64,000 bases of DNA from Paenibacillus amylolyticus (GTDB lineage: Bacteria; Bacillota; Bacilli; Paenibacillales; Paenibacillaceae). Shown here one piece after another: positions 1-64,000 of the stretch (position 1 is the stretch's first letter; each line of letters opens with the position of its first letter). The stretch spans positions 3,100,001 through 3,164,000 of the forward strand of contig NZ_CP121451.1 of the NCBI RefSeq assembly GCF_029689945.1. The letters run 5' to 3'. The position numbers were made by a program, and so were the translations under genes. The notes below the pieces were generated by a model. The model worked only from the letters and a program-made list of their open reading frames with translations. It was not told the origin of the DNA and did not search any database.

Positions 1-1
1 T

Positions 2-445
2 GCCGATGCTTTCCAATACTTGCGTGAACAAGTGAAAGGACTGGATGAACGTTCTGCACGTGCGCGTGCTGGCGAACAAAAGGTAGATACATCCAAAGCG
101 CTTGCCGCTGGCGGTAAAACATTTGATGTCGTGATCCTCGATCCCCCGGCGTTTGCCAAGACGAAATCAGCAGTCAAAGGTGCATGCCGTGGATATAAGG
201 ATATCAACCTGCAAGGAATGAAACTGGTCAATGAGGGCGGATATTTGGTAACAGCCAGCTGTTCGTATCACATGCGTCCAGACCTCTTCCTGGATACGAT
301 TGCCGATGCCGCGGAAGATGCAGGCAAAGTGCTTCGTCTGATCGACTGGAAGGCAGCCGGTAAGGACCACCCGCAAATTCTGGGCGTGGATGAAGGACAT
401 TACCTGAAATTTGCTATTTTCGAAGTGCGCAGTAAAAAGAATTAG
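2..445 (+). CDS. Class I SAM-dependent rRNA methyltransferase (RlmI/YwbD type), C-terminal part
   Basis: The frame is open from the first bases of the window, so the gene begins upstream and only about 147 C-terminal residues are seen. The motif ILDPPAFAK is the catalytic Asn/Asp-Pro-Pro type loop of RlmI-like 23S rRNA cytosine-C5 methyltransferases. It is followed by GYKDINLQGMKLVNEGGYL and the TASCSYHM segment that normally closes the Rossmann methyltransferase fold. The missing part should hold the PUA domain and the SAM-binding glycine motif. Family assignment is firm. The exact methylated base cannot be told from this fragment. Confidence 0.85.
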   Translation, partial: ADAFQYLREQVKGLDERSARARAGEQKVDTSKALAAGGKTFDVVILDPPAFAKTKSAVKGACRGYKDINLQGMKLVNEGGYLVTASCSYHMRPDLFLDTIADAAEDAGKVLRLIDWKAAGKDHPQILGVDEGHYLKFAIFEVRSKKN

Positions 446-601
446 AAGAATTTCTTTTCACTTTTTTAATCTCTTGTGAGATAAAGTGAACGTTTATATG
501 AATGATACTTTCGGTCAAAAGTCCACAGTGTGAACAGCTGCGGCTTTTTGCCGTGTTAACGGAGAGGATCTCCGGTTTTACCGGATAGTGGCAAACGTAT
601 G

Positions 602-629
602 TTCCGAACCAACTTAGATATGTTATACT
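602..629 (+). promoter_or_regulatory. Possible sigma-A promoter of addB
   Basis: A good -10 hexamer TATACT lies at 624-629, about 40 bases before the addB start. The -35 match (TTCCGA, 602-607, 16-base spacer) is poor, so only the -10 is convincing. Confidence 0.35.
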
Positions 630-669
630 GGGAATTAAAATCTTGTACGTGTGGTTTGGAGGATTAGAC

Positions 670-3600: not shown

Positions 3601-4173
3601 TATGGTCTGTCATTGCAGATGCTCACCTATCTGGAGGTGCTGCTTAGTGCGGCCGAGGAATGGCTTGGGGAAACGGCAATGCCGGGAGGAACGTTGTACT
3701 TCCATGTGCATAACCCGCTGTTGCAATCCGCAAACGGTATGACATCGGAGCAAGCCGGACAAGAACTGCTGAAACGGTTCAAAATGAAAGGTCTGCTGCT
3801 GGCGGACAGGGATGCTATCGCGCAAATGGACAACACCCTGGATAAGGGGTATTCAGCCATTATTCCGGTTGCCCTTAAGGCAGATGGCAGCTTTTATAGC
3901 AGCGCCGCTGTAGCTACGCCAGAGCAATGGGATACGTTGCTTGCTTCGGTTCGCAGTAATATCCGCGAGATTGGTACCCGGATTACGGATGGGGACGTGG
4001 CCATCGAACCTTATCGTATTCAGCAGGAAGTGGCGTGCACGTTCTGTCCATATAAGCCTGTTTGTCAGTTTGATGAGAATATAGAAGGAAATGAATATAA
4101 TCTGCTTGCCAAACCAGGCAAACAGCAAATCTGGGATATGTTATCTCACACCAAAGGAGGGGAAACATCATGA
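670..4173 (+). CDS. addB: ATP-dependent helicase/nuclease subunit B (AddB)
   Basis: AddB is the second subunit of the AddAB helicase-nuclease, which resects double-strand breaks and loads RecA at Chi; it replaces RecBCD in Firmicutes. The 1167-residue length is close to B. subtilis AddB. An N-terminal Walker A (GRAGSGKSS, about residues 8-16) starts the degenerate helicase part. The C-terminal RecB-type nuclease domain has VIDYKSS. The iron-sulfur cysteines are visible as CPFSHFA (about residue 804) and the terminal CTFCPYKPVC. I chose ATG 670 over a TTG at 643 because TTGGAGGATT sits just upstream and homologs begin close to the Walker A. The stop overlaps the addA start (ATGA), which implies translational coupling. 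Confidence 0.96.
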   Translation: MSVRFVIGRAGSGKSSLITREITSLLQKEPQGKPLILLVPEQSSFRTEQALVSSGAIKGTMRAEVLGFRRLAYRIMQEAGGSARIPIGAEGKKMLLYKVIQRRKEELKLFGASGSQLGFIGELNDLYSEFKRYEVDPSLLEEGLSGGYASSSSPILEDKLHDLNLIYRDYEQELTHLYIDDEDTLTELTERLSESALLQGAQIWIDGFQGFTPQEMSVIGRLMLQCSSVTIALTLDRAYDHGALPGELELFYPTASAYARLKGMAEELGVSSDIIVLDSEIPPRYKDRPGLAHLEAGFDRRIRWKGEGLDSGIRLIAAENRRAEMEGALREMRRLAQNEGARYREMAVLVRQLDTYADIAEPLFRDYGVPVFLDRRRNELHHPLSEFIRSALDIVRRHWRYEDVFRCVKTDLLLPRDGSITREDMDQLENYVLACGIHGYRWTDGKPWKYVPSLSLEDNGQDGRSRGRDQMLSLMERCRTVITDALGAFEKRMKKAKTAKAQCEALYRLLEEAEIPWKLEHMSDDAKAQGDPERSREHRQMWGAVLDLLDQMVDMMGNERLDITLFAGMIETGLAELKLGLVPPALDQVLVGSMDRTRLQDIKYVFILGAVDGELPAVPQDDGVLTELERALLTERGVALGPGTTRQMLDERFLIYTALTAASNQLWLSYPVADDEGKALLPSEIVRHVRKMFGLQEQPLLAQPPFVNSEEAHWSYVTHPGQSLSALIGQLRKWRRGEDIPEIWWAVYNWHVSREASRPQLERLIGSIFYRNRALPLRTSTSRRLYGTEVRTSVSRMERFVACPFSHFASHGLRLKERQLYRLQAPDIGQLFHAALSQLAMRLREENRSWGSLTPDQCRKEAEHTVEQIAPQLQGEILLSTKRYGYIFRKLKDIVSRASVILGEQSRRGSFEPIGLELDFGPDKTLPPLRFELENGCVMEIVGRIDRVDVAEGENGLLLRVIDYKSSQTDLKLHEVYYGLSLQMLTYLEVLLSAAEEWLGETAMPGGTLYFHVHNPLLQSANGMTSEQAGQELLKRFKMKGLLLADRDAIAQMDNTLDKGYSAIIPVALKADGSFYSSAAVATPEQWDTLLASVRSNIREIGTRITDGDVAIEPYRIQQEVACTFCPYKPVCQFDENIEGNEYNLLAKPGKQQIWDMLSHTKGGETS

Positions 4174-7100
4174 CGAATATGCCCAAACCGGAAGGGAGCT
4201 TCTGGAGTGACGACCAGTGGAGTGCAATCTCGGAAAGCGGAGAAGATATTCTGGTTGCCGCTGCCGCGGGATCGGGTAAAACAGCCGTTTTGGTTGAACG
4301 TATTATTCGCAAGATCGCAGATCCCTCCCAAGGATTCAGTGTGGATCGTTTGCTTGTAGCGACGTTTACCAAAGTTGCCGCTGCCGAGATGAAACAAAGG
4401 ATTCGGGAAGCGCTGGAACGTGCACTTGAAGAACAGCCTGGAGAAGAACATTTGCGTAAGCAACTGTCCCTGCTTGGGAGGGCATCCATTACAACATTGC
4501 ATTCATTCTGTATGGAAGTTATTCGACGGTACTATCAGCAAATTCCGTTGAACCCCGCTTTCCGTATCCTGAATGAAAATGAAGCGGAAATCATGCGGCA
4601 GGAATTGCTCGAAGAACTTTTTGAGGAAAAGTATGGCGAAGAAGATGAAGGCAGTACATTCCGTGAATTGGTGGACTGGTTCAGTGGAGAGCGAAACGAT
4701 GATGCCATGCATCGACTGGTACAACGATTATATGATTTCTCCCGCAGTCACTCCTGGCCGGATCATTGGCTCTCAGAGATGGCATCTGCTTTTCAGGTGG
4801 AAAGCGTGGAGGAACTGGGACATTCAGCATGGGTTCAGAGTATTTTGCGTGATGCGGCTCTTGCTCTAAGTGGTGCAGCAGGACTGCTCCGTCAAGGTAT
4901 CCATATTTCCATGCAGCCTGAAGGGCCGGCACCTTATGCAGATACGTTAAAAGAAGATCTGGTGATGGTAGAAGAGCTGTTGTCTGCGGTCCAGGTTATG
5001 CCTTGGGAGAGGTTGCCGGAAGTGTTTCAGCCCGTTGCATTCGGCAAACTGAAACCCTGCAAAAAGGATCAAACGGACCCGGCTTTACAGGATCAGGTGA
5101 AGGAACTCCGTGAGGCAGCGAAAAAGGCGGTCTCCGATCTGAAAGGCTCCTTGTTCGGAAGAAGTGCGTTTGCGTTCTGGCAGGAGCTGGAGCAGGCGGC
5201 ACCACTCATGCAGGAGTTGTCGAGGCTGGTGAGTACATTTGGAGAACGTTATCGGCAGGCCAAACAGGAACGTGGGCAAGTTGACTTCAGTGATCTGGAG
5301 CATTACTGTCTGCACATTTTGCGACATGAGGATTCAACGCCTGAACTGTCAATGCCATCCGATGCGGCTATGGAGTATCGTTCGCGATTCGATGAAGTGT
5401 TGCTTGATGAATATCAGGATACCAATACGGTTCAGGAAGATATCGTAAAACTGATCTCCAGAGAAAATCCGGGTAACCGATTCATGGTAGGTGATGTCAA
5501 ACAGAGTATCTACCGGTTCCGGTTGGCTGAGCCAGGTCTGTTTATGAACAAGTATCGTCAGTACGGAGCGAGCACGCATGAGGACAGAAAAGGTGAAGAT
5601 CGCCTGAATCGTACAGGTCAACGTATTGATCTGGCGCGTAATTTCCGCAGTCGTGCGGAAGTCGTACATTCGGTCAATATGATATTCCGGCAACTCATGA
5701 ACGAAGGTGTGGCAGAGATTGCTTATGATGAACGAGCTCAACTGGCATACGGAGCTACGTTCCCGTCAGAAACACTTGGCGATGAGGCGTATACACCTGA
5801 ACTCATGCTGATCGATCGTCAGGGTGGTGGGCCTGATCTGACAGAGAGTACGGATGAGAATGGGGATGCAGCGGTCTCCGCAGAACTGGAGAGTGCCGAA
5901 CTGGAGACAGCCCAGTTGGAAGCACGGGCGATCGCAAGGCGTATTCGTGAGATGGTTGGAGATACGGACAAACCTGCCCTCCATGTATACGACAAAGCCC
6001 TGCAAACGATGCGCCCGGCACGATACGGTGACATGGTCATCTTGCTGCGTTCAACCTTGATGTGGGCTCCGCTCATGATTGAGGAATTCAGACAGCAGGG
6101 AATTCTTGCTGGTGGAGAACAGAGCAAGGGTTACTTCCAGGCTACGGAAGTGGAAATCATGATGTCTTTGCTACAGCTTGTTGATAATCCAAGGCAGGAC
6201 ATTCCGCTTGCCTCCGTGCTTCGTTCCCCGATTGTCGGACTGGATGAAGAAGAACTGGCGCAGATTCGGCTTGGTGACAAAAGACAGTCTTTCTACGATG
6301 CAGTGATAACGGCTGCTGGAGAATGGGGCGATGTCTTCACTAATGCCGTACAACAATCAAGGCATGAGGATCATCCTGATTCGAATATCGTCCAGTTGCA
6401 GTGGCCGGAAGCCTGGTCCGAGATGGAGCAGGGACAGCGGGAGACAGCGGCTTCTGTCGAGGCAGAGATTCTGGATGGTGGATATGAATTTGGTGTGCAT
6501 ACAGATGGAATTCAAGATGCCGGTTTTATTGGACATTCAGGCGGAGGTATGGGGGTTACGGAGATTTCAGGCTCGAAGTTGCAGCAAAAGTTGATTCGCT
6601 TTATGCGTCAATTGGAGCAGTGGAGACTTGAGGCAAGACAAGGCAGTCTAAGTGAACTGATCTGGCGTATGTATCGGGAAACCGGCTATTTGGACTGGGT
6701 TGGTGGTCTTCCCGGAGGACTGCAACGTCAAAGCAATCTGAAGGCATTGTACGATCGGGCACGACAATATGAGGAATCAACTGCAAATCGCGGTTTGTTC
6801 CGTTTCCTGACCTATGTTTCAAGATTGCGGGAAAACGGGGAGACCTCGGAACTGTAGCAGGTAGCTCTGGGGAGCAGGACAACGCCGTACGGATCATGAC
6901 GATTCACCGGAGTAAAGGTTTGGAGTTTCCGATCGTCTTTGTCGGTGGCATATCCAAAATGTTCAATCAGCAGGATCTGAACGCACCGTTTCTCATGCAT
7001 AAGGAGCTGGGATTTGGTCCGAGATATGTGGATCGTGAGAACCGGGTTGCTTATCCTACACTAGCGAATCTGGCGATTCGTCGTCGGGCGCAATTCGAAC

Positions 7101-8589
7101 TGCTTGCTGAAGAGATGCGTGTGTTGTACGTTGCGTTGACCCGTCCCAAAGAGAAAATGATTCTGCTGGGTACCGTAAAAGATGCGGCGAAAAAAGCGTT
7201 GGCGTGGTCTCAGGTCAAGGACAGCCCTGAACTGGCATTGCCAGACTATCTGCTGGCTGCGGGACGGAGTTACCTGGACTGGATTGGACCATCCCTGATG
7301 AGACATCCGGATGCGGCTGTGTTGCGTGAACTTGCTGGAAGCAATGATTCGTTCTCGGCCTGTCTTGCAGATGATGAATCACGATGGGCGATTTCTATCA
7401 TCTCTGCCGATCAGGTATCCCGTGATCATGTAGTGGATCAGACACTCGGAGAAGAAGACGGGATGACTGCCGTGCGGAAAGAACGAATTGCTGCACTAAA
7501 GGCGGTTCAGCCTGTGAAGTTGCTTCCATTATCAACGGTTGAAGAGCCGACAAAGAGTGCACAAGATACAGCTAACCAAAACATTCAAGATGAAGCTGCA
7601 GATACAGCAGCTCTTCAAGAAGAAGAAGAGACACGCCTGATTCGCGAAGTTGATCAACGGCTTTCGTGGACATATGACTATGAAGCGGCAACTCAAGTGG
7701 CAGCCAGTACATCTGTCACGGAGTTGAAAACGTTGCTGGCAATGCAGGATATCCAGTCTGTAGAGGTAATGGAGGAACTGGGAGAACAATCCGGGACATT
7801 ATTGGATCACAACACCCCGGGAAACCATTACACCAACGATGAAACAGGCCATGTACTACATGACTTATCCAGTGAATTGAACGAGCATGGGACTGTGCTG
7901 GGTTCAGATTTGAGCGGTGCGGTGAATGTTTCGGATGCGGGATCTGCGGTAACGTCATTCAAATTGCATCTGCGTCGTCCCAAATTTATGGGTGAGAACC
8001 AACTGACAGGAGCAGAACGGGGAACGTGTATCATACGTTGATGCAGCATCTTCCTATAGATGGATCGGCCATTGATTCACAACTTATTGAGCAGATCCTT
8101 CAGCGACTGGTGAAGCTCCAGATTTTGCTGTCCCATCACGCGGAGGCTATCGAACCGGAAGAGTTGGTCGGATTTTTCGATACAGAACCAGGGAAAGAAA
8201 TGTTGCGTGCAGAATGGGTGAAACGGGAGATTCCGTTTGTGTATGGACTTCCGGCACATCAGTCCCCTGTAGAGTGGCTACATGGACAGGCAGCGAATTC
8301 AGGTATGCACACGATAAATGATGATAGCAAACTGCAAGCATCCATCGAAAATGAAACCGTGCTTGTACAGGGGATTATCGATTGTCTGTACGAGGTTGAC
8401 GGCGAGCTTGTCCTGCTCGATTACAAGACGGATCGGGTGTTGGCGCATCGTGGTGGTTTGGATGAACTCACCAAAAACTATCGCTTCCAGCTGGATCTGT
8501 ATGGACGGGCTATTGAAGATATATTAGGTCGGAAAGTGGAACGGAAATGGCTGTACTTTTTTGATGGTGGACATGCAGTAAAATTATAA
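4170..8589 (+). CDS. addA: ATP-dependent helicase/nuclease subunit A (AddA), two frameshifts in this sequence
   Basis: AddA is the UvrD-like helicase and main nuclease subunit of AddAB. It shows Walker A (AAAAGSGKTAVLVERI), DEYQDTN, GDVKQSIYRFR, ARNFRSR, MTIHRSKGLEFP and LYVALTRPKEK, then the nuclease residues GELVLLDYKTD and YRFQLDLYGRA. The reading frame breaks twice. At 6837-6840 a run of four G needs a fifth, giving ENGGDLGTVAG. At about 8022-8025 one base is missing, giving ERGTVYHTLMQH. Repaired, the protein has about 1473 residues, clearly longer than the roughly 1230 of B. subtilis AddA. The excess lies in acidic low-complexity insertions around 6360-6570 and 7540-7960. The breaks look like sequence errors because the domains on both sides are intact. 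Confidence 0.93.
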
Positions 8590-8664
8590 TAGAGTGAAAT
8601 TTTAAAAGAATTGGATCGGAATTCAAAACCATGGATTTCATATGGGAGAGGGGTGGAACGGACG

Positions 8665-9848
8665 ATGCGTATTTTGCATACAGGGGACTGGCATTTGGGT
8701 AAAACGCTGGAAGGACGAAGCCGACTGCGTGAACAGGAAGATTTCGTTGATGAACTCGTCAGACTGGCGGATGAGCAGCAGGCGGATGCCATATTGATGG
8801 CCGGGGATGTGTACGATTCGGTGAATCCTCCCGCAGCGGCGGAGCAGCTTTTTTACGAAGCGGCAGCGCGCCTGACGGAACATGGAAGACCTCTCGTGGT
8901 CATTGCAGGCAATCATGATCAGCCAGAGCGTGTAGCTTCTGTGACTCCATTAGTGAACAGGCAGGGGATTACACTCGTAGGTATGCCTACTTCAGAAGCG
9001 GTGACCATCCATGCCAAACGGACTGGAGAGACTGGACAGATCGCGGCATTGCCTTATCCTTCTGAAGCCAGATTGAATGAATTGCTTACAGCGGACGGGG
9101 ATGAAAATGTGCTTCGTCAGGCATACAGTCAACGGGTGGGCATGTTAATGCAGCATCTGGCAGCTTCTTCCGCCCGGATACCGTGAACTTGGCTATGAGC
9201 CATATCTATGTGCTCGGCGGACTTGAAAGTGATTCGGAACGTCCGATTCAGATCGGTGGGGCGTACACGGTGGACCCTTCGTCTTTATCGACTGGTGCAC
9301 AATACACGGCGCTTGGGCATCTTCATCGTGCACAGGCTGTCAAAGGTGACGGTGTGATTCGGTATAGCGGTTCGCCTCTGGCCTACAGCTTCTCGGAAGC
9401 TGGACAGAGCAAGTCTGTCACGATGGTTGATCTGGCCCCGGGCGGAGCTGCACAGGTAGAGGAAATTTTGTTAACGTCCGGGCGTCCGCTGGTGCGTTGG
9501 AAGGCTCGTGGCGGTCTGGCAGAAGTATATCGCTGGCTGGACGAGGGACGTGATCCGCAGGCTTTTATCGACATGGAAGTATGGCTGGACGAGGCGATGT
9601 CCCTGAAGGAGATTCAGCAGCTTCGCAAATCACATGAAGGTATCATTCATATTCGACCGGTGTATCCCGAGATGGCAGCAGCAGGACTTTTGGAGCAGCG
9701 ATCGGAACTGCCGGTTCACGAGCTGTTCCGTAAATTCTATCAGCGTCAGACGGGTGGTGCCCAGCCGGAAGACAGCCTCGTACAGCTTTTCCTGGAGCTT
9801 GTGGACGAAGACGAGCCGGGTGTGCGTGAGGAGGTGGAGGAAAGATGA
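8665..9848 (+). CDS. sbcD: Nuclease SbcCD subunit D (SbcD, Mre11 family), one frameshift
   Basis: SbcD is the Mre11-type nuclease that with SbcC opens hairpins and protein-blocked DNA ends. Phosphoesterase motifs are present in order: GDWHLG, GDVYDSVNPP, GNHDQPERV, and after the break GHLHRAQ. The start ATG 8665 follows GAGAGGGGTGG. The frame is lost at 9165-9166, where TT must be TTT to give HLAAFFRPDTVNLAMSHIYV. The repaired protein has about 394 residues, the usual family length. It lies 75 bases after addA and overlaps sbcC by four bases, so addBA-sbcDC looks like one repair operon. Confidence 0.93.
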
Positions 9849-13264: not shown

Positions 13265-13769
13265 AGATAGCCATATATTTATTTGCATACCGTCTTGGCT
13301 GGGACCAGAATGCCGAAGATATCGTGCAGATGTATGTTTGTCTGTCTGAAGGATGGCTTGTCACTGTTGAACGGCAAGACATGGAGGAAAGAGGGGAGCT
13401 TTAGAATTCCCTACTCCAAGTCTCAGCAATATGAATGATAAAAGCTCTTATAGTCCAAGTAACTAAAATGACCAAATATGATTTTGTAAAAATATTTCTT
13501 TTCTTGCATGGATAACATAGCAGAGTGAGTTTCATCACAGATACAGGTTCATCCCGCTGTTATACTACAGTTAAGCCGACAAACTTGATTTAAGTACCCG
13601 GCGGACATCTGATCAGGACGTTTCCTGAATGGATGTCCGCGCAGCAGACTTCCAAGGAAGCCGCTCACGGGGTGCTTCTTTTTGTGTTTTCCCGTTGGCA
13701 GTGTCAATTCGCCCAGTTCTGAATACCATGAAAAGGTGATCAAGAGCAGAATCAGGGAGGCGTTGGCAA
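13265..13769. other. 505-base intergenic region with hairpins, no gene seen
   Basis: No convincing reading frame on either strand. Two palindromic segments stand out: 13601-13640, where GCGGACATC pairs with GATGTCCGC around an inner TCAGGA/TCCTGA stem, and 13656-13688, a short GAAGC/GCTTC stem followed by a run of T. Together they could be a small structured RNA or a leader of the gene at 13770. A TATACT at 13561-13566 could be its -10 box, but no -35 box was recognised. Confidence 0.4.
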
Positions 13770-14114
13770 GTGGAAAAAGTGGAAGCGAAGAAATTATGCA
13801 AGGACCACATGCACCGTTATGTATGTGTACAGATGAATGACGGCATGCATTACGATGGCATTATGGAAAATGTGGATGACGAAATGATCTACCTGGCTGT
13901 TCCTGTTGGACCGGAAGCCATGGTTAATCATGCAAACTGGGCTCCCAATGCAATGCCTGGAGCAAACTATCCGATTGGTCATACCCGCGGATTTTATCCG
14001 GGATACGGGTACCCTGCGCCCTATCCGTATTATGGTTATGGCCGCAGACGTTTTAACCGACTGGTGCTTCCGTTATTCGCGCTTACAGCATTAACTCTTT
14101 TACCGTATTATTGA
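13770..14114 (+). CDS. Small protein of unknown function, possibly with an Sm-like N-terminus
   Basis: I do not recognise this 114-residue protein by name. The GTG start at 13770 has a well-placed AGGGAGG. Residues 11-45 (HMHRYVCVQMNDGMHYDGIM, then ENVDDEMIYLAVP) alternate hydrophobic and polar residues and carry a G...D...L pattern. That recalls the Sm1 strand-turn-strand motif of small beta-barrel proteins. The middle is rich in Pro, Gly and Tyr (GYGYPAPYPYYGYGRRR). The end is a hydrophobic stretch, LVLPLFALTALTLLPYY. Tyr/Gly/Pro-rich tails are common in spore-surface proteins of Bacillales, but that role is inference. It is followed by a strong terminator at 14322. Confidence 0.7.
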   Translation: MEKVEAKKLCKDHMHRYVCVQMNDGMHYDGIMENVDDEMIYLAVPVGPEAMVNHANWAPNAMPGANYPIGHTRGFYPGYGYPAPYPYYGYGRRRFNRLVLPLFALTALTLLPYY

Positions 14115-16038: not shown

Positions 16039-16039
16039 C

Positions 16040-16972
16040 TCATTGTCCTCCATTATAGATATTTTGGCTTAAATACCGTTCGCTGCTATCCGGAAAAATA
16101 ACGACGATGTTACTTCCCGGAGCTGCGTGAGCGGCTTCGTTCAATGCGGCTTGCATAGCTGCACCAGATGAACTTCCTACCAGTAGTCCTTCCAACAGGG
16201 CTAGATCCTTGACCCGCTCAAAGGCGTCTTCGTCTGAGATCGTATGAATGGCGTCAAAATAGTTCACATCCATAAATGGAGATAACGTTTCGACGCCTAT
16301 TCCTTCTGTACGGTGAGGTCCCGAGGGACCTCCTGCGAGAATTGAACCTTCGGGTTCCACGATACATGTTTTGATTAACGGGTTTTGCTCCTTCAAATAG
16401 CGGGATCCTCCCATGAAGGTTCCGCCGGAACCGGCTCCGGCGACATATACATGCACCTGTCCGTTCAGATCACGCCAAATCTCGGGGCCCAGATGTTCGT
16501 AATGTGCGAGTGGGTTATCACCATTGGAGAACTGACCTGGAATATACGAACCCGGTATTTCTTTCGCCAGCGATTCCGCCTTGCGTATGGCACCAGTGAT
16601 GCCTTCTGATGTGGGGGTGTTCACGACCGTTGCTCCAAGGGCTTTCATCAATTGCTGCTTCTCGACGCTGAACTTCTGAGGTACCGTGAAAATGACATTC
16701 AGATTCAGCCCCACAGCCGCCATTGCCAGACCAATGCCTGTATTACCGGCAGTAGCTTCAATTACCGTTCCACCTGGCTTAACCTCTCCTCGTGCCAAGG
16801 CCTTCTCCAATAAAAACTTGCCGATCCGGTCTTTCACACTTCCTCCTGGATTCATGAATTCCAATTTGGCGAACAGTCGGATTCCTTCCGGTAAGGGATA
16901 TCGAGTTAATTCAAGCAGAGGCGTATTACCTATCAGTTCCTGAACATGTTGATAAACAGTCAAATTAACCAA
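16040..16972 (-). CDS. mccA: O-acetylserine-dependent cystathionine beta-synthase (MccA)
   Basis: A fold-type II PLP enzyme of the cysteine synthase family. In the MccA branch it condenses homocysteine with O-acetylserine (or serine) to cystathionine. It has the PLP-lysine site NPGGSVKDRIG, the phosphate-binding ATAGNTGIGLAMAA, the second glycine loop GAGSGGTFMGG and the C-terminal VGSSSGAAMQAA. The length of 310 residues is normal and there is no CBS regulatory domain. The start is TTG 16972, preceded by AAGGAG inside the end of the upstream methyltransferase gene. The operon yrrT-mccA-mccB supports reverse transsulfuration over plain cysteine synthesis. Confidence 0.9.
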   Translation of the reverse strand: MVNLTVYQHVQELIGNTPLLELTRYPLPEGIRLFAKLEFMNPGGSVKDRIGKFLLEKALARGEVKPGGTVIEATAGNTGIGLAMAAVGLNLNVIFTVPQKFSVEKQQLMKALGATVVNTPTSEGITGAIRKAESLAKEIPGSYIPGQFSNGDNPLAHYEHLGPEIWRDLNGQVHVYVAGAGSGGTFMGGSRYLKEQNPLIKTCIVEPEGSILAGGPSGPHRTEGIGVETLSPFMDVNYFDAIHTISDEDAFERVKDLALLEGLLVGSSSGAAMQAALNEAAHAAPGSNIVVIFPDSSERYLSQNIYNGGQ

Positions 16973-17608
16973 TCTCCTTTTTTGCGTTCATTAACCATAC
17001 ATATTTGTTTACTCGGAAAAAGTGCGTGATAAAACCATATTTCGATAAAATGGTCTGTAAGACATCCATTGTTGTATAGTATTCGGTCCGTAGATCCGTC
17101 AACAGCTCAGTGTAGCCTTGAGCAGCTACTTCATCCTCAATCTGCTGACGACTCGCCTGATTCTGAAAGACAGTATCTGCAAATACAATCTTTCCATGGG
17201 GACTTAGAGCTTGGCGTATATTGAAATCGCCTGTTCTTTCTCCGCATCCGTTAAATGATGAAAAGCATATGTGCTCACGATGGCGTCGATCGGCTCAGCA
17301 ATAGATGGGAAATCCAGAAAGTCTCCTTCCATCAATTCGAAATTCAAATTTCGCTTCCGCACCTGATGGATCATCCCTTGGGAAGGCTCGATCCCGTATA
17401 CTTTAAGACCTGAGGCTATCAACTTTTCGGTAAGGTTTCCTGTGCCTACGCCAAATTCCAAAATTGTCCCGCTCACCTCTGCGACCACTGCCTGAAGAAT
17501 TTCTTCATAATGCTCAAACACTTCCTGATACTGTTGGTCATGTCCTCTTACAGTTTGATCATAATCATTTGACCATTGGTCAAATAAAGGCACAAACTCT
17601 CTACCCAT
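16965..17608 (-). CDS. yrrT: YrrT-like SAM-dependent methyltransferase, one frameshift
   Basis: A class I SAM methyltransferase with the glycine motif ILEFGVGTGNLTEKL and YGIEPSQGMIHQ. It matches YrrT, the first gene of the B. subtilis mccAB operon; its substrate is not known. The frame is lost near 17206, where one C is missing. Adding it joins YAKL to LSPHGKIVFADTVFQNQ and continues to the stop at 16965-16967. The repaired length of 214 residues equals the family length. The end overlaps the mccA start, so translation of the two is probably coupled. The usual mtnN gene between yrrT and mccA is absent here. Confidence 0.85.
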
Positions 17609-19367: not shown

Positions 19368-20728
19368 GTGAAGGGAAAGCGCCGGAAGAAGCTTACGGGG
19401 CCACTGATGCTCTTAATGCTGCTGACGCTGCTGCTTCCTGTCTGGATTGGATCACCGTCAGCGCATGCAGCTGAGAAGAGTGGTGCCGTATATATTATTC
19501 CGGTTGATAAACCAATCGAGCAGGGACTTGGCAAGTTCATGGAACGTGGATTCAAGGAAGCGGAAAAGATGAACGCTGGCTTGATCGTTCTTGATATCAA
19601 TACGCCGGGAGGCCGTGTCGACACTGCGGAAGCGTTGGGTACCCTGATCAAGGACAGCCCGATTGAGACTGTTGCATTTGTCCGTGGAGATGCTGCTTCA
19701 GCCGGAAGTTTTCTGGCTCTGAATGCAGATAAGATCGTAATGTCACCAGGCAGTATGATTGGTGCGGCAGCTATGGTCGACAGTACGGGTAAACATGTTG
19801 ATGATCCGAAGCTTGTTGCATTCTGGAAAAGCAAGATGCAGGGAGCAGCCGAAATCAGTGGTCGTGATGGCAACATCGCAGCTGGAATGACGGATGTTAA
19901 CATTGTTGTTGAAATGCCAGAGATCAATAAAACCAAGCAAAAAGGTGAAATTATTGCTCTCTCGGCTGAAGAAGCGCTGAAAGTTGGTTATGCTGACCAC
20001 ATCAGCAATACCCCGGAAGAAGCGGCAGCTTGGCTTGGTTACAGTCAGGATGACGTGTTTAAGGTAGAACGTACGACAGCGGAGAATATTTCATCGTTTC
20101 TTACCAATCCGGTTGTCATGACAGTACTATTATTCTTGGGAATTGCGGGTGTGATCATTGAATTGATTGTTCCTGGTTTTGGAGTTCCTGGTATTGTGGG
20201 TATCGTGTGTTTCGTATTGTATTTCTCGGGTAATTACATTGCGGGATTTGCCGGAGCAGAAACATGGGTGCTATTTACCGTCGGACTCATTATGATGATT
20301 CTGGAGATGTTTATTCCGAGCTTTGGTATTCTGGGAATTTTGGGTTCGATTGCACTTGTGGCCGGTGTTGTAAGGGCTGTGATGATACGAGTGATGCTTT
20401 TGTATCCCTGGGTATCGCCTTTGGAGCAGCGCTGGTGGTCATTGCGATTATCTCAATCATCTTTAAGGATCGAGGAATCTGGAATCGGTTCATACTGAGT
20501 GACAGCATGTCTGCGGATCGGGGTTATTCATCAGCTACAGAACGTAAAGAGCTGATTGGCCTGCAAGGGATCAGTCTGACACCGCTTCGTCCTTCGGGTA
20601 CAGCGATGTTTGAAGGGGAACGAATTGACGTTGTGACCGACGGAGATTTTATACCCATCGATACACCCATTATTGTGATTAAAGCGGAAGGTACCCGGAT
20701 TGTGGTTCAGCAAGCTTTGCCGGTGTAA
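19368..20728 (+). CDS. nfeD: NfeD family membrane serine protease-like protein (YqeZ), one frameshift
   Basis: A long NfeD (stomatin operon partner) protein. It has an N-terminal signal peptide ending near SPSAHAAEKS and a ClpP/SppA-like protease domain. DINTPGGRVDTAEALG and the probable nucleophile serine in GDAASAGSFLAL are visible, with MSPGSMIGAA following. A membrane domain of several helices and a C-terminal OB-fold (GLQGISLTPLRPSGTAMFEG) complete it. One base is missing near 20376-20380, between GVVRA and DDTSDAFVSLG. The repaired length is about 453 residues. It starts at GTG 19368 after AAAAGGGGGG. With floA it forms the conserved microdomain operon. Confidence 0.92.
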
Positions 20729-21904: not shown

Positions 21905-21917
21905 GCGGTGAGTGCAT

Positions 21918-22516
21918 ATGGGCCTATTTGAATGGATTTTTAATAATCTGTATATCGTGGCCGTCATCGGTTTTGCGCTCTTCTCTTTCTTGGGGAAGGC
22001 TGCAAAATCGGCTGATCCAAAAAGCGTCCTGCCAACGGGATGCCCACATTTGGAGGCAACGGTGATTCAGGCCGGGATGAACGCTCAAGAGGGGATTCAC
22101 CTCCGCAGCAGACGTCTGGACCTGTAGATCCCCGCTATGATGAACAGTATGACGATCGGTATGATGACGAGCAATATAAGAATCAGTACGATCAACCGTA
22201 TTCGGAGCCTGCTGCATCTTCTCGCCCTGCCAATGACTACAGAAGTGAGGGCACGATGAGTGCCATGGAAAATTCACTTGAAGAACAGATGAGAGGCATG
22301 GAAGAACAGCAGCGTTTGATCGAAGAACGCTTGAATCGCATCTCTTCTGCGAATCGGCCAGTTGTGTCTGATTCCGGTTGGAGTGATTCCAGCACGGATG
22401 AATCGGGAGCATCAACTCGGCTTCGTCCAGCGGACATTCGCACAGGTGTATTATGGGCAGAAGTACTGGGTTCCCCGCGTTCCAAGCAACCGTTTGGCAC
22501 AAGAGGGAAACTGTAA
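21918..22516 (+). CDS. Membrane-anchored acidic protein of unknown function, third gene of the nfeD-floA cluster, one frameshift
   Basis: I do not recognise this protein. It occupies the yqfB place after floA. An N-terminal hydrophobic anchor (about residues 3-24, FEWIFNNLYIVAVIGFALFS) is followed by a soluble tail. That tail has Tyr/Asp/Gln repeats (DPRYDEQYDDRYDDEQYKNQ), a helical EEQMRGMEEQQRLIEERLNR segment and a conserved-looking end, DIRTGVLWAEVLGSPRSKQP. The frame breaks in an A run at 22019-22023, which needs one more A to give ADPKKRPANGMPTFGG. The repaired length is 199 residues. I prefer ATG 21918, seven bases after GGCGG, to GTG 21912. A role at FloA microdomains is suggested only by position. 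Confidence 0.75.
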
Positions 22517-22695: not shown

Positions 22696-22989
22696 ATGAC
22701 CCGGATCAGCCGCAAGCTGCGCAGATGGACGAGTGAAGTGTTGGATCTGCCGCAGGATGTGCTTTATGATATGCCACGGTTAACCCTGATCGGCAGTAAG
22801 CAATTGTATATAGAGAATCATCGCGGTGTCATCCATTTCACCCCGGATCGCATCGTATTGGCTCTTTCCCAAGGCCAGTTGGAGATCAAAGGAACAGCCT
22901 TGGTGATCCGTAACATTTTGCCGGATGAAGTAGCAGTTGAAGGAACGATTCTGGATATTCATATGAATGGAGTGGAGGGGAACGGATGA
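22696..22989 (+). CDS. yqfC: Sporulation protein YqfC
   Basis: A 97-residue YqfC-family protein (RKLRRWTSEVLDLPQDVLYD, then MPRLTLIGSKQLYIENHRG). In B. subtilis it is made in the mother cell under sigma-E and works together with YqfD; the mechanism is unknown. GAGGAAGGGG precedes the ATG. The end overlaps the yqfD start by four bases, so the two are coupled. Confidence 0.92.
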   Translation: MTRISRKLRRWTSEVLDLPQDVLYDMPRLTLIGSKQLYIENHRGVIHFTPDRIVLALSQGQLEIKGTALVIRNILPDEVAVEGTILDIHMNGVEGNG

Positions 22990-25155: not shown

Positions 25156-25171
25156 AAAGGGATTGTCTAAA

Positions 25172-38306: not shown

Positions 38307-39065
38307 ATGAAACTTTCGAATCGATTACAGCGAATACATGATCAAATTCCCGATGGCAGCCGCATGGCTGATATCGGTTCAGACCACGCGCTGCTGCCCG
38401 TAGCCGCAATCCGCAGCGGGAAAGCCGCAACTGCAGTAGCCGGGGAAGTTAATCCTGGGCCTTACGATGCTGCATGCAAACAAGTCAGTGATGCTGGCCT
38501 GAAAGAAAAAATAACGGTACGGCGTGGAGACGGATTGGATGTGATCTCTGCGGGCGAAGTGGATGTCATCACCATTGCAGGTATGGGTGGTGCGCTGATT
38601 GCTTCTATTTTGGACCGAGGCATATCCAAATTGGAAGGCGTACAGTTACTTATTTTGCAACCGAATGTGGGAGAGGATATTCTCAGACGCTGGTTGCTGG
38701 AGCATCACTGGGTGGTTGTAGCAGAACAGTTGCTCGAAGAAGATGGCAAGATCTATGAGATTATCACGGCGATGCCACAATCCGTAAGCCCGATTGCCAA
38801 TGATGAGGTGTATCGTGCACGTCCGCTTCAAGGCGGAGCAGCATTGACAGAAGAGTTGTTGCTGCGCATGGGACCGTATTTGGTCGATCGTCCAACAGAT
38901 GTGTTTTTTGCCAAATGGGAAAGCGAGATCATTAAACTGCAAGGGGTTGTAAACTCCATCTCCAAATCCGATCAGGATTCTTCCCGGGACAAGGCGGCTG
39001 AGGTAGAGCGTCTTATCGCAAATTTGAAGGAGGTTTTGGCATGTTTGCCAAAGGTCAAACTGTAA
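38307..39065 (+). CDS. trmK: tRNA (adenine22-N1)-methyltransferase TrmK
   Basis: TrmK methylates N1 of A22 in bacterial tRNAs. The Rossmann glycine motif is MADIGSDHALLPVAAI and the catalytic-loop region is ITIAGMGGALIASIL, then LQPNVGEDILRRWL. A helical C-terminal domain follows. I use ATG 38307, giving 252 residues; family members begin with KLSNRLQRI directly after the start. The end overlaps the yqfO start by 25 bases, the conserved pairing. Confidence 0.93.
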   Translation: MKLSNRLQRIHDQIPDGSRMADIGSDHALLPVAAIRSGKAATAVAGEVNPGPYDAACKQVSDAGLKEKITVRRGDGLDVISAGEVDVITIAGMGGALIASILDRGISKLEGVQLLILQPNVGEDILRRWLLEHHWVVVAEQLLEEDGKIYEIITAMPQSVSPIANDEVYRARPLQGGAALTEELLLRMGPYLVDRPTDVFFAKWESEIIKLQGVVNSISKSDQDSSRDKAAEVERLIANLKEVLACLPKVKL

Positions 39066-44226: not shown

Positions 44227-46100
44227 TTACGGGGTATATTTCTTCATCGTATTATCCATTTGCTGTCTGACATGTTGCGGCCAGAACTGCAAAGGCGCGC
44301 TGTTGCCCGATGCAGCTTGCAGTGCCTTGTAGACATCGATTTGCCCATAGCCGAAATACTTATCGTGACCCGGATCACCGAGGTCAATCACACTTTGGCG
44401 CATTAGATCCATCACTTCCGTGTTGGTCAAATCCGGGTTCAACGAACGAATCAAACCTGCAAGTGCGGCTACATGGGGACTAGCCATGGATGTTCCGGAC
44501 AAGGCTGCATACTGATTGTTTGGATAGGTACTGGCGATACTGGACCCGGGGCCATCACATCCACATAATCCCCGTAGTTGGAATAGGAAGCTTTGCTCAT
44601 ATCCGGGTCTGTAGCAGATACGGCAAATACTTCCGGATAAGCAGCAGGGTAGCCTGGACGCTCCGTATTATCATTGCCCGTGGCTGCAATCAGGACGATA
44701 TCCCGGTCAAAAGCATATTTAATGGCATCATGAAGAAATTGCGCATCAGCATAATTGCCCAGACTCATGTTGATTACTTTGGCTCCATGGTCGGCTGCCC
44801 AGATGATACCTTCGGCAACCGCATACGTGGTACCCGAACCTGAGTTGTCGAGTACTTTAACCGGCAGTACCTTGTTATACCAGCTCATGCCTGCCACACC
44901 TTCATTATTGTTGACAATGGCACCGATAATGCCAGCGACGTGTGTGCCATGTCCCACATCATCCATTGGTTTGCTTCCCGGCTCGACCACATTATACCCC
45001 TCAAGAAGCTTGCCCTTCAGGTCAGGATGGTTCATATCAACGCCTGTATCTACGACTGCAACGATGACGTCTTTGTTTCCCTTGGTAATGTTCCAACCTC
45101 TGTTTGTCTCAATCGCAGGCAGGTTCCACTGATAATCAGAGAACAAAATATCGTTGGGTATCGTTACATCGGTTTGTTCAGTTACGGTATCATTGGTTAA
45201 ATACATGTAGTGGGGTTCCATATAGAGTGGATTCCATTTGCTTTCGAAATAACTATGCAATTGCTTGTAACTCATGTCTTCTGACCGAAAAACATATGTG
45301 TATCCAAGCTTGCGTATTGAGTTAGACTTTAGATCAGATTTAATGATACGCATATCCCGTTCACCGGGATCCTGACGAAAACGGATGACGATTTCATTTT
45401 CGTAAAAATGACTGGCATTGGCATTATCATGTCCGGTTTTCACAGTGATTTCGTTAAGCGTATCCGGATGAACCGATTCAATTTTGAATTTACCTTCACG
45501 CGGATAGGGGATTATGCGCAGATTTTTGCGCTGATGTTGTTCAACAGCATTCAATACGTTCTGGCTGAACAAGGCAATGACAGCTCTTTTGCCATCTTTG
45601 GAGGGTTGCCCCATCACAAAATATTTTTCTTTTCCCAAAGGGAAAGAAGAGGATTCGAAACTTTGACGTTTGTTCACCGCTTTTTTAGCCAGAGTCAGCG
45701 CATGTTGCAGCTTCTGTTGCTCCAACTTGCTTCCTTGTGTGGAAGCTTGATCAAACGGCTTGTTGAAGGAGCCATTGATATTCATGAGATGAATGGATCT
45801 GATATGTTCATGTGAGCTTTGGAGATCATTCACATATCGGCTTACTTGCGCAGCGTTCATTGCGGCGGTTTTCTCCAGCATGATACTGAGATGTTGTTTG
45901 GCATCCATGCGGGTCAAAAGATCTGTTGCTTTGACATCCTGTACTTTCAGACGCTGCTTACTCGTATGCTCTTCATGAGCAGAATCGGACAGAGCACTTG
46001 GCTTGGGTTCTTGACGATTGGATGTTGGAAGCAGAAGCGTCAGGGCAAGTGCTCCCGCACCAGCTGCAAGGGCCCAATTGATCCATTTCGGTCTGGACAT
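44227..46100 (-). CDS. S8 family serine peptidase (subtilase) with long N-terminal region, one frameshift
   Basis: A secreted or membrane-anchored subtilase. The N-terminus has a signal/anchor (WALAAGAGALALTLLL). About 300 residues of N-terminal region follow, then the catalytic domain. Catalytic Asp is in AVVDTGVDMNHPDLKG (about residue 350), His in DVGHGTHVAGIIG (about 383), Ser in LSGTSMASPHVAAL. The frame breaks near 44543-44546, where one base is missing; repair gives VMAPGSSIASTYPNNQYAAL. The repaired length is 624 residues. GAAGGAGG precedes the ATG. The region around HIRSIHLMNINGSF suggests a sensor-like fold, and EIVIRFRQDPGERDM an inhibitor-like propeptide; both are inference. Confidence 0.9.
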
Positions 46101-48836: not shown

Positions 48837-49984
48837 TTGAAATATTTTGATTATGCTGCAACCACGCCTCCCCACCCGGATGTCATTCGTACGATGGCCG
48901 AAATTATGGAGACACAATTCGGTAATCCGTCTTCTATTCATGGATATGGGGAGCGTGCTCATCAATTGTTGCGTCGTGCACGTTCTGGCTGTGCTGTGGC
49001 CATAGGGGTTAAGCCTGAGGAGATTGTATTTACTTCCGGAGCGACCGAGAGCAATAATCTTGCCATAAAAGGTGCGGCATTACGTTATCAGTCAAGAGGA
49101 AGACATATCATTACAACAGCTACTGAACATGCCTCGGTGTATGAAAGTGTGATGCAATTGCAACAGTGGGGATGGGATGTGACGCTAATTCCTGTCAACT
49201 CCGCGGGTGTGGTGAATGCTCAGCAGGTTGTAGATGCAATCAGACCGGACACGGTGTTGGTGAGTCTGATGCATGTAAACAATGAAACAGGGGCAATCCA
49301 CCCAATTGCAGAGATTGGCAAACAGCTGAAAAAGAAAGCCCCCGCGTGCTCTTCCATGTGGATGGTGTTCAGGGTTTTGGCAAAATGGAGGCTGCACCTG
49401 CCGGTTGGGGTGCAGATCTCTATAGTCTGTCTGCCCACAAGATCCGTGGACCGAAGGGAGCAGGTCTCTTGTATATGCGAAGTGGCGTGGAACTTACGCC
49501 ACTCATGTCAGGCGGATCACAGGAGCATGGGCTAAGAGCAGGCACGGAAAACGTGGCCTTGCTGGTAGGCATGGCAAAGGCCATGCGGATGGCAGCAGAA
49601 GGCCAGGTTGATTTTGCCCAGCGTACCCGGATACTCCGTGATCGATTGATGGAGACGATACGTGATATTCCTGAATTTGAATTGAACAGTCGTACCGAGG
49701 GTGCACCACATATTGTGCACTTTTCCTATCCCGGGATGAAGGCAGAAGTGGCGCTGCACACCTTGGAGCAACTTGGCGTAACCATATCCACCCAATCAGC
49801 CTGTTCTTCCCGTTCGGCTGAACCGAGTCGGACATTGCTTGCGATGGGCAGGGATGCAGCTTGTGCTGGTGGAGGATTACGCATTAGTCTTGGAGATGAA
49901 CATACAGAAGAAGATGTAGCCTTGCTTGAACAGGCGTTACATCAGATGGTGGCGCAGTTGCGCCCCCTCGAAAGGCGGATGTGA
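48837..49984 (+). CDS. nifZ: Cysteine desulfurase (NifZ/IscS type), one frameshift
   Basis: A class V PLP enzyme that moves sulfur from cysteine, here probably to ThiI for tRNA 4-thiouridine. Motifs are KYFDYAATTPPH, FTSGATESNNLAIKG, TEHASV, the PLP lysine in YSLSAHKIRGPKGAGLL, and the persulfide Cys in STQSACSSRSAEPSRTLL. A C run at 49339-49343 needs one more C, giving KKAPRVLFHVDGVQGFGK. The repaired length is 382 residues. I favour TTG 48837 because AAGGGAGG lies upstream and homologs start this way; ATG 48804 is in frame but only about nine bases from the predicted transcription start. thiI follows at once. Confidence 0.92.
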
Positions 49985-52060: not shown

Positions 52061-52146
52061 GTATTATGTCACTCCTTATATACGGTTCAATCATTAAGAA
52101 TAGCATGGACAACTCTCACATACAAGTTAATGTGGGGGATGAGGAC

Positions 52147-52805
52147 ATGGATACACTCTGGCTGTTGACTGAGATTTTAATGATCAATCTGGTATTGAGT
52201 GGAGATAATGCGGTTGTTATTGCGCTTGCGAGCAAGGATCTGCCACCAATACAACGGAAAAAAGCGGTATGGTGGGGGCTTTTGGTGCGGTGCTGCTGCG
52301 CTGCGTATTAACCTTCGTAGCGGTATTATTGCTGGGAATTCCCTTTATCCAAGCAGCAGGTGGGCTGTTGCTGCTCTGGATTGCCGTGAAGTTGCTGCTT
52401 CAAAATGATGATGAAGTACATATTCGAGAAGCTTCTACGACGTGGAAAGCCATTCAAACGATTCTAATTGCCGATTTTGTAATGAGCCTGGATAATGTTT
52501 TGGCCATAGCAGCTTTGGCAGACGGAGATTTGGCTTTGATCGTCATCGGAATCGCAATCAGTATCCCTATTGTCGTATGGGGAAGCGGGTTAATTGTTGG
52601 TTTGCTCAAGCGATTTCCGATTCTGGTATTCGCCGGATCAGGCATTCTGGCTTTTACAGCCGGTGAGATGGTGATGAAAGACCCCAAACTGGGAGAATGG
52701 CTGGGAGGTATGGCATCAGAGGTGCATACACTGCTGCCCGTAGCAATGGCTTGTCTTGTTATTGCGGTTGGAGGAGCACACAAATTTGTGCGGAAGAACG
52801 CGTAG
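52147..52805 (+). CDS. TerC family membrane protein (paralog 2), one frameshift
   Basis: A second TerC protein with MINLVLSGDNAVVIALASKD and ILIADFVMSLDNVLAIAALA. A G run at 52274-52278 needs one more G, giving KKAVWWGAFGAVLLRCVLTF. The repaired length is 219 residues. The ATG at 52147 follows GGGGGATGAGG. It is divergent from paralog 1 and shares the short 86-base promoter region with it. Confidence 0.9.
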
Positions 52806-58764: not shown

Positions 58765-60098
58765 ATGAAAAAGATTTTTGTATTGGATACCAACGTGCTT
58801 CTACATGACCCCAATGCCATATTTGCCTTTGAGGAACATGAGGTAATCATTCCCGCGGTTGTATTGGAGGAGATCGACTCCAAAAAAGAAATGCCGATGA
58901 AATTGGGCGTAATGCCCGTAATGTATCGAGATTGTTGGATGGATTACGTGAGCTGGGTCACCTGCACAGTGGGGTACCTCTGGCTAATGGAGGTAATCTG
59001 AAAGTAGAACTGAATCATCGGAGTTTCGTTAAAGTTCAGGAAATGTTTGGTGAAGTATCCAACGATAATCGCATTTTGGCTGTCGCATTGAATTATCAGA
59101 TCGAGGAAAATGAAAAGGAAATCGTCGAACGTCAGGTGGTGCTTGTCAGTAAAGATGTACTTGTGCGTATCAAAGCGGATGTACTTGGTTTGTTCACACA
59201 GGATTACTTATCAGATCGGACGGCAGGACTCAGCGAGTTATATCCAGGTTATACGGCCCTCAAAGTTCATCCGTCTGTCATTGATGAGTTTTACACATAT
59301 CGTTTTTTACCAATCAAACCGTTACAGTTGTCCTATTCGTTGTATCCGAATGAATTCGTTATTCTCAAGGATGAGATGGGAACCAACAAATCGGCTTTGC
59401 TCAAAGTGAATACAGAGGGAACAAAGCTGGAGCCACTTTTCCTTAGTAACGATAATGTCTGGGGCATTAGCGCGCGTAACGCACAACAACGGATGGCGCT
59501 TGAACTGCTTTTGAATGACGACATCCCGCTTGTTACGATCACTGGTAAAGCCGGAACAGGGAAAACCCTGCTGGCTCTAGCAGCAGGTCTGCTTAAGGTA
59601 GAGGATGATCACAAATATAAAAAACTGTTGATTGCTCGTCCTGTCGTTCCGATGGGCAAAGATATTGGTTACTTGCCTGGTGAGAAAGAAGAAAAACTTC
59701 GTCCATGGATGCAGCCGATTTATGATAATCTGGAGTTTTTGTTTGACACCAAAAAGGCTGGAGATATCGATAAAATTCTAATGGGGCTTGGCAGTATTCA
59801 GGTAGAGGCTTTAACGTATATTCGGGGAAGATCGATACCTGGACAGTTTATCATTATTGATGAAGCTCAGAATCTGTCCCGACATGAAGTAAAGACCATT
59901 GTATCCAGGGTCGGTGAGGGCAGTAAAATTATTTTGATGGGTGACCCCGAACAGATTGATCATCCGTATCTGGATTCTGCCAGTAACGGTCTGACGTATA
60001 TCGTGGAACGGTTCAAGCAAGAGGGAATCAGCGGACATATCATGCTCGAAAAGGGAGAGCGGTCCAAGCTGGCACAGCTTGCAGCTGATTTACTGTAA
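58765..60098 (+). CDS. ylaK: PhoH family protein with N-terminal PIN domain (YlaK), one frameshift
   Basis: A PIN-PhoH (PhoH2) fusion, a putative RNA-cleaving helicase-like ATPase. The PIN domain begins [20 protein letters not shown]. The ATPase has [39 protein letters not shown] and [16 protein letters not shown]. An A run at 58882-58887 needs one more A, giving [20 protein letters not shown]. The repaired length is 444 residues, as in B. subtilis YlaK. GGAGGGG precedes the ATG. This is the second PhoH gene in the window; the other lacks the PIN domain. Confidence 0.93.
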
Positions 60099-61599: not shown

Positions 61600-62676
61600 T
61601 TAAAATGATATGGCTAGTTTTACTTCCAATATGCCTTCACTTGTTGAAACATCCGTTGCTTTGACAAAAGAGAGGATTTTCTGAGGATAGAATCCAAGAT
61701 CGAATTCTCTTTCCAGCATTCGGCGAGTGGTATCCGGTAATTCAAGCTGGTTGAATACAAGTTTGTCCACGTGAAAACGAATGGAGTTTTGAGGTTCATT
61801 TTCTACCGTATAATGTCCTTCAATGCTTAATTGCAACTGATCCCGCTGACCGGATGCGATAATCTTATCCTCATTAAACTCAAAGGCAAAGTCTTCGAAG
61901 ATGGAATTTTGGGAACGAAGAAATGTATTAAGTTCATCCTGCCCAATACGAATCGTATACGTTGTTCCTGTTGTAGATATGCCGCCGTTTTGCTTTTGAA
62001 TAAAATCAGGAAGGTTCTGCATGGCGGATGCCAATGCTTTGAAATATCGTTTCACCTCATAGATGCCGATATTCTCCCAATACAGGGTCAATTCATCCAT
62101 CAGTTTCTGAATCGCTGCCGCATCTCCGCTGGTGGCTATTTGGGCATCCACTTCTTTTTGCAAGGCGACTACACGTTCCCGCTGGTTTTGGAGATTAATC
62201 TTCATTGCGGTCAATTCTGCTGTAGTCTGACGAATCTGAGTGGAAGTCTGTTGCAGGTTGCGATAGTGGTCCTGATACTTGTCCAGCACAGCCTGATCCC
62301 GTCCAATAATAATCTGATAATAATCATACAATACAAACAGGTCTTTCAATGACCTGGCTCCCAGGACCGTCATGAGAAGACTGTCGCGTTCTCCTGTGTA
62401 GTAAGACCTCACTACTGCTCCGGCCCGATCTTGCTGGATATGTATCTGCTCTTCCTGTTCCTGAAGCTGGACGGCTAATGTCTCGTTTTGTTGAGCCAGC
62501 TGTTTCTGCCTTTCGGCGATGCGTTCGATTTCATGATCGATTTCGACGATAGATAGACTTTTTTGCAAGATCTCACGTGTATCCTCAGGTGAAGACTCTG
62601 CGTAGGTGTAGGAAGAGGGTAGTTGCAGGAATATAATGATGCATAATATAAATGCGGCAATGCCATGACGTCTCAC
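61600..62676 (-). CDS. Secreted coiled-coil protein of unknown function
   Basis: A 358-residue protein with a signal peptide (GIAAFILCIIIFLQLPSS, cut near YAESS). Residues 30-200 are a long coiled coil. It contains a RAGAVVRSYYTGERDSLLMT segment like that of PcsB/CwlO-type peptidoglycan-hydrolase N-terminal domains, but no NlpC/P60 or CHAP domain follows. The C-terminal 140 residues (TYTIRIGQDELNTFLRSQNS) form a domain I do not recognise. It may be a cell-wall or divisome adaptor. Confidence 0.8.
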   Translation of the reverse strand: MRRHGIAAFILCIIIFLQLPSSYTYAESSPEDTREILQKSLSIVEIDHEIERIAERQKQLAQQNETLAVQLQEQEEQIHIQQDRAGAVVRSYYTGERDSLLMTVLGARSLKDLFVLYDYYQIIIGRDQAVLDKYQDHYRNLQQTSTQIRQTTAELTAMKINLQNQRERVVALQKEVDAQIATSGDAAAIQKLMDELTLYWENIGIYEVKRYFKALASAMQNLPDFIQKQNGGISTTGTTYTIRIGQDELNTFLRSQNSIFEDFAFEFNEDKIIASGQRDQLQLSIEGHYTVENEPQNSIRFHVDKLVFNQLELPDTTRRMLEREFDLGFYPQKILSFVKATDVSTSEGILEVKLAISF

Positions 62677-62858
62677 CGATCATTCTCCTTTCCACTTCTT
62701 CAATGACAATAGTACAGGCTTGATGTCTTCCAGACAATATATGAAACAAATACGTGAATTATCCTTAGTGGTTACATAACACCATGAACATTCATCTAAT
62801 CTGAACACAACAAAAAGCAACCCGACAGATATCGGATCACTTTCATGCTGCAGGTGGA

Positions 62859-63094
62859 TTAGAGCGGCAAACCCATTTCGAATACGGTCCAGTAGCTGAA
62901 CCCCGTGAATGTGACGATCATATAACCCCAGAAGAGCAATATGTACGTTCGTTCAGTAAATTTCAAGTATCCCAAAATGACAAAAAACGCAGTCTGCAGG
63001 AAAAAAAGCAAAGCCATTTCGACCAGATCTCCCGCAAAAGCCATCAGGCCAATCGCAAGCGTGAAGAACCCGAGTACCCGAACATGCGTGCCAC
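62859..63094 (-). CDS. DUF2626 membrane protein (YqgY-like), one frameshift
   Basis: A 78-residue membrane protein recognised only after repair. The start is GTG 63094 with GAGAGGAGG upstream. The first codons read MARMF, then one base is missing near 63080 (minus strand TTCGGG should be TTCCGGG), giving RVLGFFTLAIGLMAFAGDLV, and further EMALLFFLQTAFFVILGYLK. This is the DUF2626 pattern, with YWTVFEMGLPL at the end. The function is unknown. Confidence 0.8.
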
Positions 63095-63407
63095 GGTAAA
63101 TCCTCCTCTCTAAGTACGATCATAGATTGTCTACACAACATTATACCGGGAAAGGAAAAACGTGTAAACAAATTTGGATATGAAAGCGAATTCTTTTTTT
63201 GCTAAAAGGAAGTATAGAGAGATAAGTTTTACATGTGTCACGTATGAGCAAGCCTGAATGTGGAAATACATTTTAGTATGAAATCAATTCTATGAACTCT
63301 ATGAGAGGCATAAGAATGAATGAAGCAGCTTTTATACCTAATTCACATACCGGTCTTCCGGTAATGCGGACGGTTATTTTAGGATGTTGTTAGGAGGGTA
63401 TTATAGC
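63095..63407. other. 313-base intergenic region with a possible 25-codon leader frame
   Basis: AT-rich, with no gene recognised on either strand. A short frame at 63316-63393 ([20 protein letters not shown] then ILGCC) has a GAGAGG upstream, and its stop TAG is the start of the TAGGAGGG of the next gene. It may be a leader peptide or chance. Confidence 0.35.
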
Positions 63408-64000
63408 ATGACTGCAGTGAGACAGGATGCTTGGAGCACAGAGGACGATTTGATATTGGCTGAGGTTACTTTGCGTCATATTCGTGAAGGCAGTACACAA
63501 TTGGCCGCTTTTGAAGAGGTAGGCGAGAAAATAGGCAGAACATCTGCCGCATGTGGTTTTCGCTGGAACAGTTGTGTACGCAAAAAGTATGAATCTGCCA
63601 TCAGTAACGCCAAGGCACAACGACAAAAACGAAGTTATCTCAGAAAGCAGCCAGCTATGCTCGGACCACAGGTTGCAGCATTGTCTACACTGGATACTGA
63701 AGAACAACTGTACAAATCAGATGGGATCTCGGACGATTCATTATCGATGGATGCCGTAATCCGCTTCCTGCGTCAATGGAAGGGAACCGTTCAGGAGAGT
63801 AGTCGTCAACTCAAGATGCTGGAGAAAGAACTTCGGGAGAAAGAAGATGAATTGCTTGAACTCCGTCTGGAGAATGACCGTCTCTCCAAGGAAGTGAATG
63901 AAGTACAGACGGATTACCGTGTGGTGAATGACGACTACAAAGCATTGATTCAGATTATGGATCGGGCTCGCAGACTCGCATTTTTGTCCGAAGAAGAAGA
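63408..64000 (+). CDS. RsfA family transcriptional regulator, partial
   Basis: The frame starts at ATG 63408 after TAGGAGGG and runs off the end of the window without a stop, so only 197 residues are seen. The N-terminal Myb/SANT-like helix-turn-helix ([53 protein letters not shown]) is typical of RsfA/YlbO prespore-specific regulators. It is followed by a long coiled coil ([20 protein letters not shown]). In B. subtilis RsfA tunes sigma-F dependent genes. Confidence 0.88.

Follow-up and report, generated by a model that had tools for sequence, protein, structure and literature searches.

Indel errors in long-read assemblies reportedly affect protein prediction and inflate the number of truncated proteins (an observation ascribed to Watson and Warr, 2019). 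For MinION assemblies, the Kastor paper (PMC12007338) describes deletion errors as prominent after homopolymers with few non-repeated bases lost, and puts frameshifted "pseudogenes" at 23.3% of genes before correction. The assembly treated here is like the Kastor assemblies in its deletion profile, its frameshifted genes and its lowered completeness; the two cases differ in that the Kastor figure covers a whole annotation whereas ours concerns 15 of 53 genes in one window, judged without reads, and in that the completeness of 92.2 given there is a BUSCO value whereas our 95.84 is another measure (PMC12007338). By this latter measure the 17 same-genus genomes listed reach 99–100.

The window, which is the whole stretch of 64,000 bases that we analysed, spans bases 3,100,001–3,164,000 of a contig 6.82 Mb long, one of the three that make up the genome. 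Close named relatives, taken from the best 80 of 581 loci, belong to Paenibacillus, in the xylanexedens/amylolyticus group. We consider the indels that break its genes to be consensus errors of an insufficiently polished long-read assembly, a reading to which we give a probability of about 98%.

Frameshifts in the window and the same genes in relatives

Eight relatives (G001–G008) were chosen from these best 80 of 581 loci, and the matching stretch, which is full-span in six of them and shorter in G005 and G007 due to contig ends, was compared with the window in a block alignment from which some relatives are missing in some blocks. In the six close relatives the long aligned pieces are ~87–95% identical to the window. 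An automatic rule that counts window-private frameshifting indels within the ORFs of relative G002 returned 21 sites, and a subsequent site-by-site reading dropped four of these and added one, leaving 18. The dropped calls were 7617 (a three-base difference), 63109 (a loss upstream of the start of the DUF2626 gene, in its likely ribosome-binding region), and 13596 and 13678 (both in a doubtful 74-residue ORF); the added site, in yrrT, lies where fewer than four relatives are aligned. The ORFs at 13586–13810 and 24237–24536 were judged to be doubtful genes and excluded on that judgement. The broken genes are as follows:

4170–8605, plus strand: addA, with one-base losses at 6836 (G run) and 8024 (adjoining a G run, ambiguous); the protein of a relative matches TIGR02785 addA_Gpos (NCBIfam) above its cut-off
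8631–9848, plus strand: sbcD, with a one-base loss at 9167 (T run); the protein of a relative matches TIGR00619 above its cut-off
16965–17608, minus strand: yrrT-like class I methyltransferase gene, with a one-base loss at ~17208 (no run; three relatives aligned)
19368–20728, plus strand: nfeD (NfeD1b), with a one-base loss at 20379 (no run)
21912–22516, plus strand: third gene of the floA cluster, with a four-base loss at 22017
22986–24177, plus strand: yqfD (PF06898), with one-base losses at 23483 (A run) and 23940 (no run)
25058–27420, plus strand: yqfF (7TM-HD), with a one-base loss at 26874 (T run)
31400–32304, plus strand: glyQ (PF02091), with a one-base loss at 31499 (A run)
35119–36939, plus strand: dnaG (DnaG domains), with a one-base loss at 36087 and a one-base gain at 36251 (both A runs)
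39041–40155, plus strand: yqfO (DUF34/NIF3), with a one-base loss at 39883 (A run)
44227–46100, minus strand: subtilase gene (S8 peptidase), with a one-base loss at 44547 (no run)
48837–49984, plus strand: cysteine desulfurase gene (aminotransferase class V), with a one-base loss at 49339 (no run); its top NCBIfam matches fall below their cut-offs
52105–52805, plus strand: terC (YjbE family), with a one-base loss at 52273 (G run)
58765–60098, plus strand: ylaK (PIN and PhoH domains), with a one-base loss at 58881 (A run)
62859–63094, minus strand: DUF2626 gene (PF11117; start inferred by eye), with a one-base loss close to its start, at 63080

Family searches with the intact proteins of relatives (Pfam for all 15 genes, NCBIfam for 10 of the 15) gave matches that agree with 13 of the 15 gene names. 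The Pfam match of the yrrT-like gene, to Methyltransf_25, shows a class I methyltransferase only, and no Pfam family was found for the relative's intact protein of the third floA-cluster gene; "yrrT" and "floA cluster" are the names used by the first-pass annotation.

That annotation had reported at least 18 frameshifts in these 15 genes, which the site-by-site reading, with 18, bears out, and had described them as single-base indels lying mostly at homopolymers, all but one of them losses. There are indeed 17 losses and one gain (36251), and 17 of the 18 are of a single base, the exception being the four-base loss at 22017. The homopolymer claim holds for 12 of the 18 sites, where relatives have a run of at least three (the ambiguous 8024 included), and fails for the other six (17208, 20379, 22017, 23940, 44547 and 49339). 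At two of these (20379 and 49339) the loss is paired with an altered neighbouring base, as is also seen in mutL, and inspection by eye revealed no common motif among the non-run sites. Alignment to close Paenibacillus relatives, proposed earlier as a check, showed the shifts to be private to the window and present in none of the aligned relatives, in which the broken genes run open at full length.

If the shifts were real yet harmless, the genes would have to be rescued at the runs, by either programmed frameshifting or slippage during transcription. A runs are known sites of slippage in other bacteria, and two of the sites do lie at A runs of 6–9 (dnaG 36251 and ylaK 58881), but most of the remaining sites are at runs of 3–6 or at no run, the shift sites are not conserved (the shifts being absent from all aligned relatives), and the same kind of loss occurs in ribosomal RNA and in duplicate contigs, as described below. 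We regard rescue of this kind as the least probable of the explanations weighed here.

The relatives served also as controls for the rate of such indels. Under the automatic rule the window's 21 private frameshifting indels compare with 2, 3, 0, 2, 1 and 1 in G001–G006, respectively, with 6 in G007 and with 9 in the more distant G008. Genes less than 95% open number 15 of 53 in the window (a count that includes a doubtful 99-residue antisense ORF, while yrrT lies outside the 53) versus 8 of 302 gene-genome pairs in G001–G006 (Fisher p ~1e-8), 4 of 42 in G007 and 6 of 44 in G008. As the 53-gene set was built from G002, G003, G004 and G006 it favours those four; in G001 and G005, which were not used for it, 4 of 94 gene-genome pairs are less than 95% open. 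Homopolymer tracts that are invariant in relatives are altered in the window in 13 of 3906 cases, all 13 by shortening, versus 5 of 22,098 in G001–G006, 3 of 2692 in G007 and 8 of 3433 in G008; for invariant tracts of at least five bases the figures are 7 of 55 in the window versus 0 of 283 in G001–G006.

Disagreement between copies within the assembly

The two small contigs of the genome each duplicate a part of the chromosome with which they disagree. Between contig C3 (3943 bases) and its chromosomal duplicate there are no mismatches but three one-base indels, located at runs; for contig C2 (3533 bases) the differences are three mismatches and five one-base indels. At each such site at least one consensus must be wrong, unless the contigs are true second copies; while they could in principle be genuine second copies, they are probably assembly by-products. 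The chromosomal counterparts of contigs C2 (L126) and C3 (L127) lie at about C1:1,720,281–1,723,812 and C1:191,095–195,040, and their ORFs appear phage-like by eye. We also considered whether a small contig might be a sequencing control strand, an idea that we rejected: both contigs duplicate the chromosome, and neither found a match in a phage collection searched in near mode.

The ribosomal RNA genes provide a second internal comparison. Among the 12 copies of 23S rRNA in the assembly there are 11 short-indel columns (10 of one base and one of two bases), versus one in G024 and none in G019, related genomes in one and two contigs with 12 copies each. At the level of single copies we counted 16 one-base losses in ~35 kb, or one per 2.2 kb, a tally that excludes two columns gapped in 9 of the 12 copies (one of one base, and one of two bases that varies in the controls too). 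The tallies further imply one base that is absent from all 12 copies; this base and the gaps in 9 of 12 copies may be genuine differences. In columns where none of the 24 control copies has a base, the assembly inserts 246, which make up two 123-base intervening sequences, and no other 23S bases are gained relative to these 24 copies. The 123-base intervening sequence is present in two of the 12 copies (L155, C1:393267–396313, and L164, C1:2016185–2019227), and is missing from the 10 other copies and from the 24 copies of the two related genomes.

These disagreements bear on real gene decay, in which the frameshifts would be genuine pseudogene lesions of a strain that is losing these genes. 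The indels do stand in the record and do break 15 genes, but losses of the same kind are found in the rRNA copies and duplicate contigs, and the broken genes include glyQ, dnaG and, outside the window, rpoB, all of which are essential in Bacillus subtilis. Among private substitutions the third-position share is 0.725 in 14 of the broken genes and 0.754 in intact genes (0.58–0.77 in relatives G001–G007); as the private substitutions look normal, so does selection in the broken genes, and in these 14 of the 15 they give no sign of relaxed selection. The first-pass annotation had preferred consensus error over gene decay, and the contradicting duplicate contigs and 23S copies, the genome-wide spread, the completeness and the normal substitutions all uphold that preference; we consider decay exceedingly improbable.

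Spread over the genome and the mismatch repair genes

A coding-frame Viterbi model found 39 frame jumps in 217.3 kb of coding sequence from 14 stretches of the genome, with 0 to 8 jumps per stretch and at least one in 13 of the 14 (L112 being without a jump). The same model found 12 jumps in 345.0 kb from 20 control stretches of two relatives, on which it had also been trained, and four in 471.7 kb from the homologous stretches of the eight relatives. One control stretch, L148 (G002:C1:1100001–1120000), holds five of the 12 control jumps, the most of any of the 20. Of the 18 window sites the model recovers only 7, and it therefore underestimates the number of frameshifts.

Essential and repair genes elsewhere in the genome are affected as well. 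In rpoB the reading frame is broken into pieces of 853 and 401 residues, versus 1188 residues in two relatives. A one-base loss splits mutS and another splits mutL, whereas all three genes are whole in G024 and G019. In the alignment of the three genomes, with ends and indels of at least 10 bases excluded, the other short indels are of 3, 6 and 9 bases.

The split mutS and mutL might suggest a mismatch-repair-deficient mutator, that is, a living strain in which neither gene really works and which is accumulating indels at homopolymers. At ~3 kb per error, though, genes of 2–3 kb would already be expected to carry such losses. In a mutator one would also expect transitions to make up more of the substitutions and gains to account for a fair part of the indels at runs, neither of which was found: among private substitutions the transition/transversion ratio is 2.37 in broken and 1.87 in intact genes, within the 1.5–3.7 of relatives, gains are rare, and losses fall at runs of 2–3 and off runs too. 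Lack of a working rpoB or dnaG should moreover be lethal to the cell, and we hold a mutator of this kind to be extremely unlikely. A variant, in which a living mutator carries many real indels in part of the population or has them rescued by slippage, such that the frameshifts in essential genes are tolerated, appears to us very unlikely.

Probable source of the errors and consequences for annotation

The indels are thus most likely an ordinary artefact, a matter of data quality and not of biology. They are mainly one-base losses concentrated at homopolymers, are private with respect to eight relatives, occur genome-wide regardless of gene importance, and leave copies of the same sequence in disagreement within the assembly. 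Losses dominate, runs as short as 2–3 are affected, one contig of 6.82 Mb keeps 12 23S genes apart, and the small contigs are duplicates; from these features we infer an assembly from long reads without accurate short-read polishing, with nanopore-type reads more likely as the source than other kinds. In such data the read signal would leave run length unresolved and the consensus would undercount the run, a base adjoining a G or C run would sometimes be dropped, and the dropped bases would persist for want of polishing with accurate reads, while the living cell would carry intact genes. A pure run-length model leaves some cases uncovered, because six of the 18 sites are off runs and one loss is of four bases. 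At about one missing letter per three thousand bases in the genome sequence of this soil bacterium, healthy genes come to look broken.

It had been predicted that automatic annotation of this window would over-call pseudogenes, and the failure of 15 of 53 genes in a simple openness test supports this. The annotation of the present assembly should consequently be read with care, and if the assembly represents its species in genome collections, as the make-up of the searched set, with one genome per species, suggests, its frameshifts could pass for gene loss in comparative studies. Comparisons of rRNA copies, duplicate contigs and invariant tracts provide within-assembly tests that work without reads. 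Six private frameshifting indels, five of them one-base losses, were also counted in the corresponding stretch (loci L008 and L105–L107) of G007, which is Paenibacillus sp. PCH8, so that its assembly may share the indel problem to a lesser degree.
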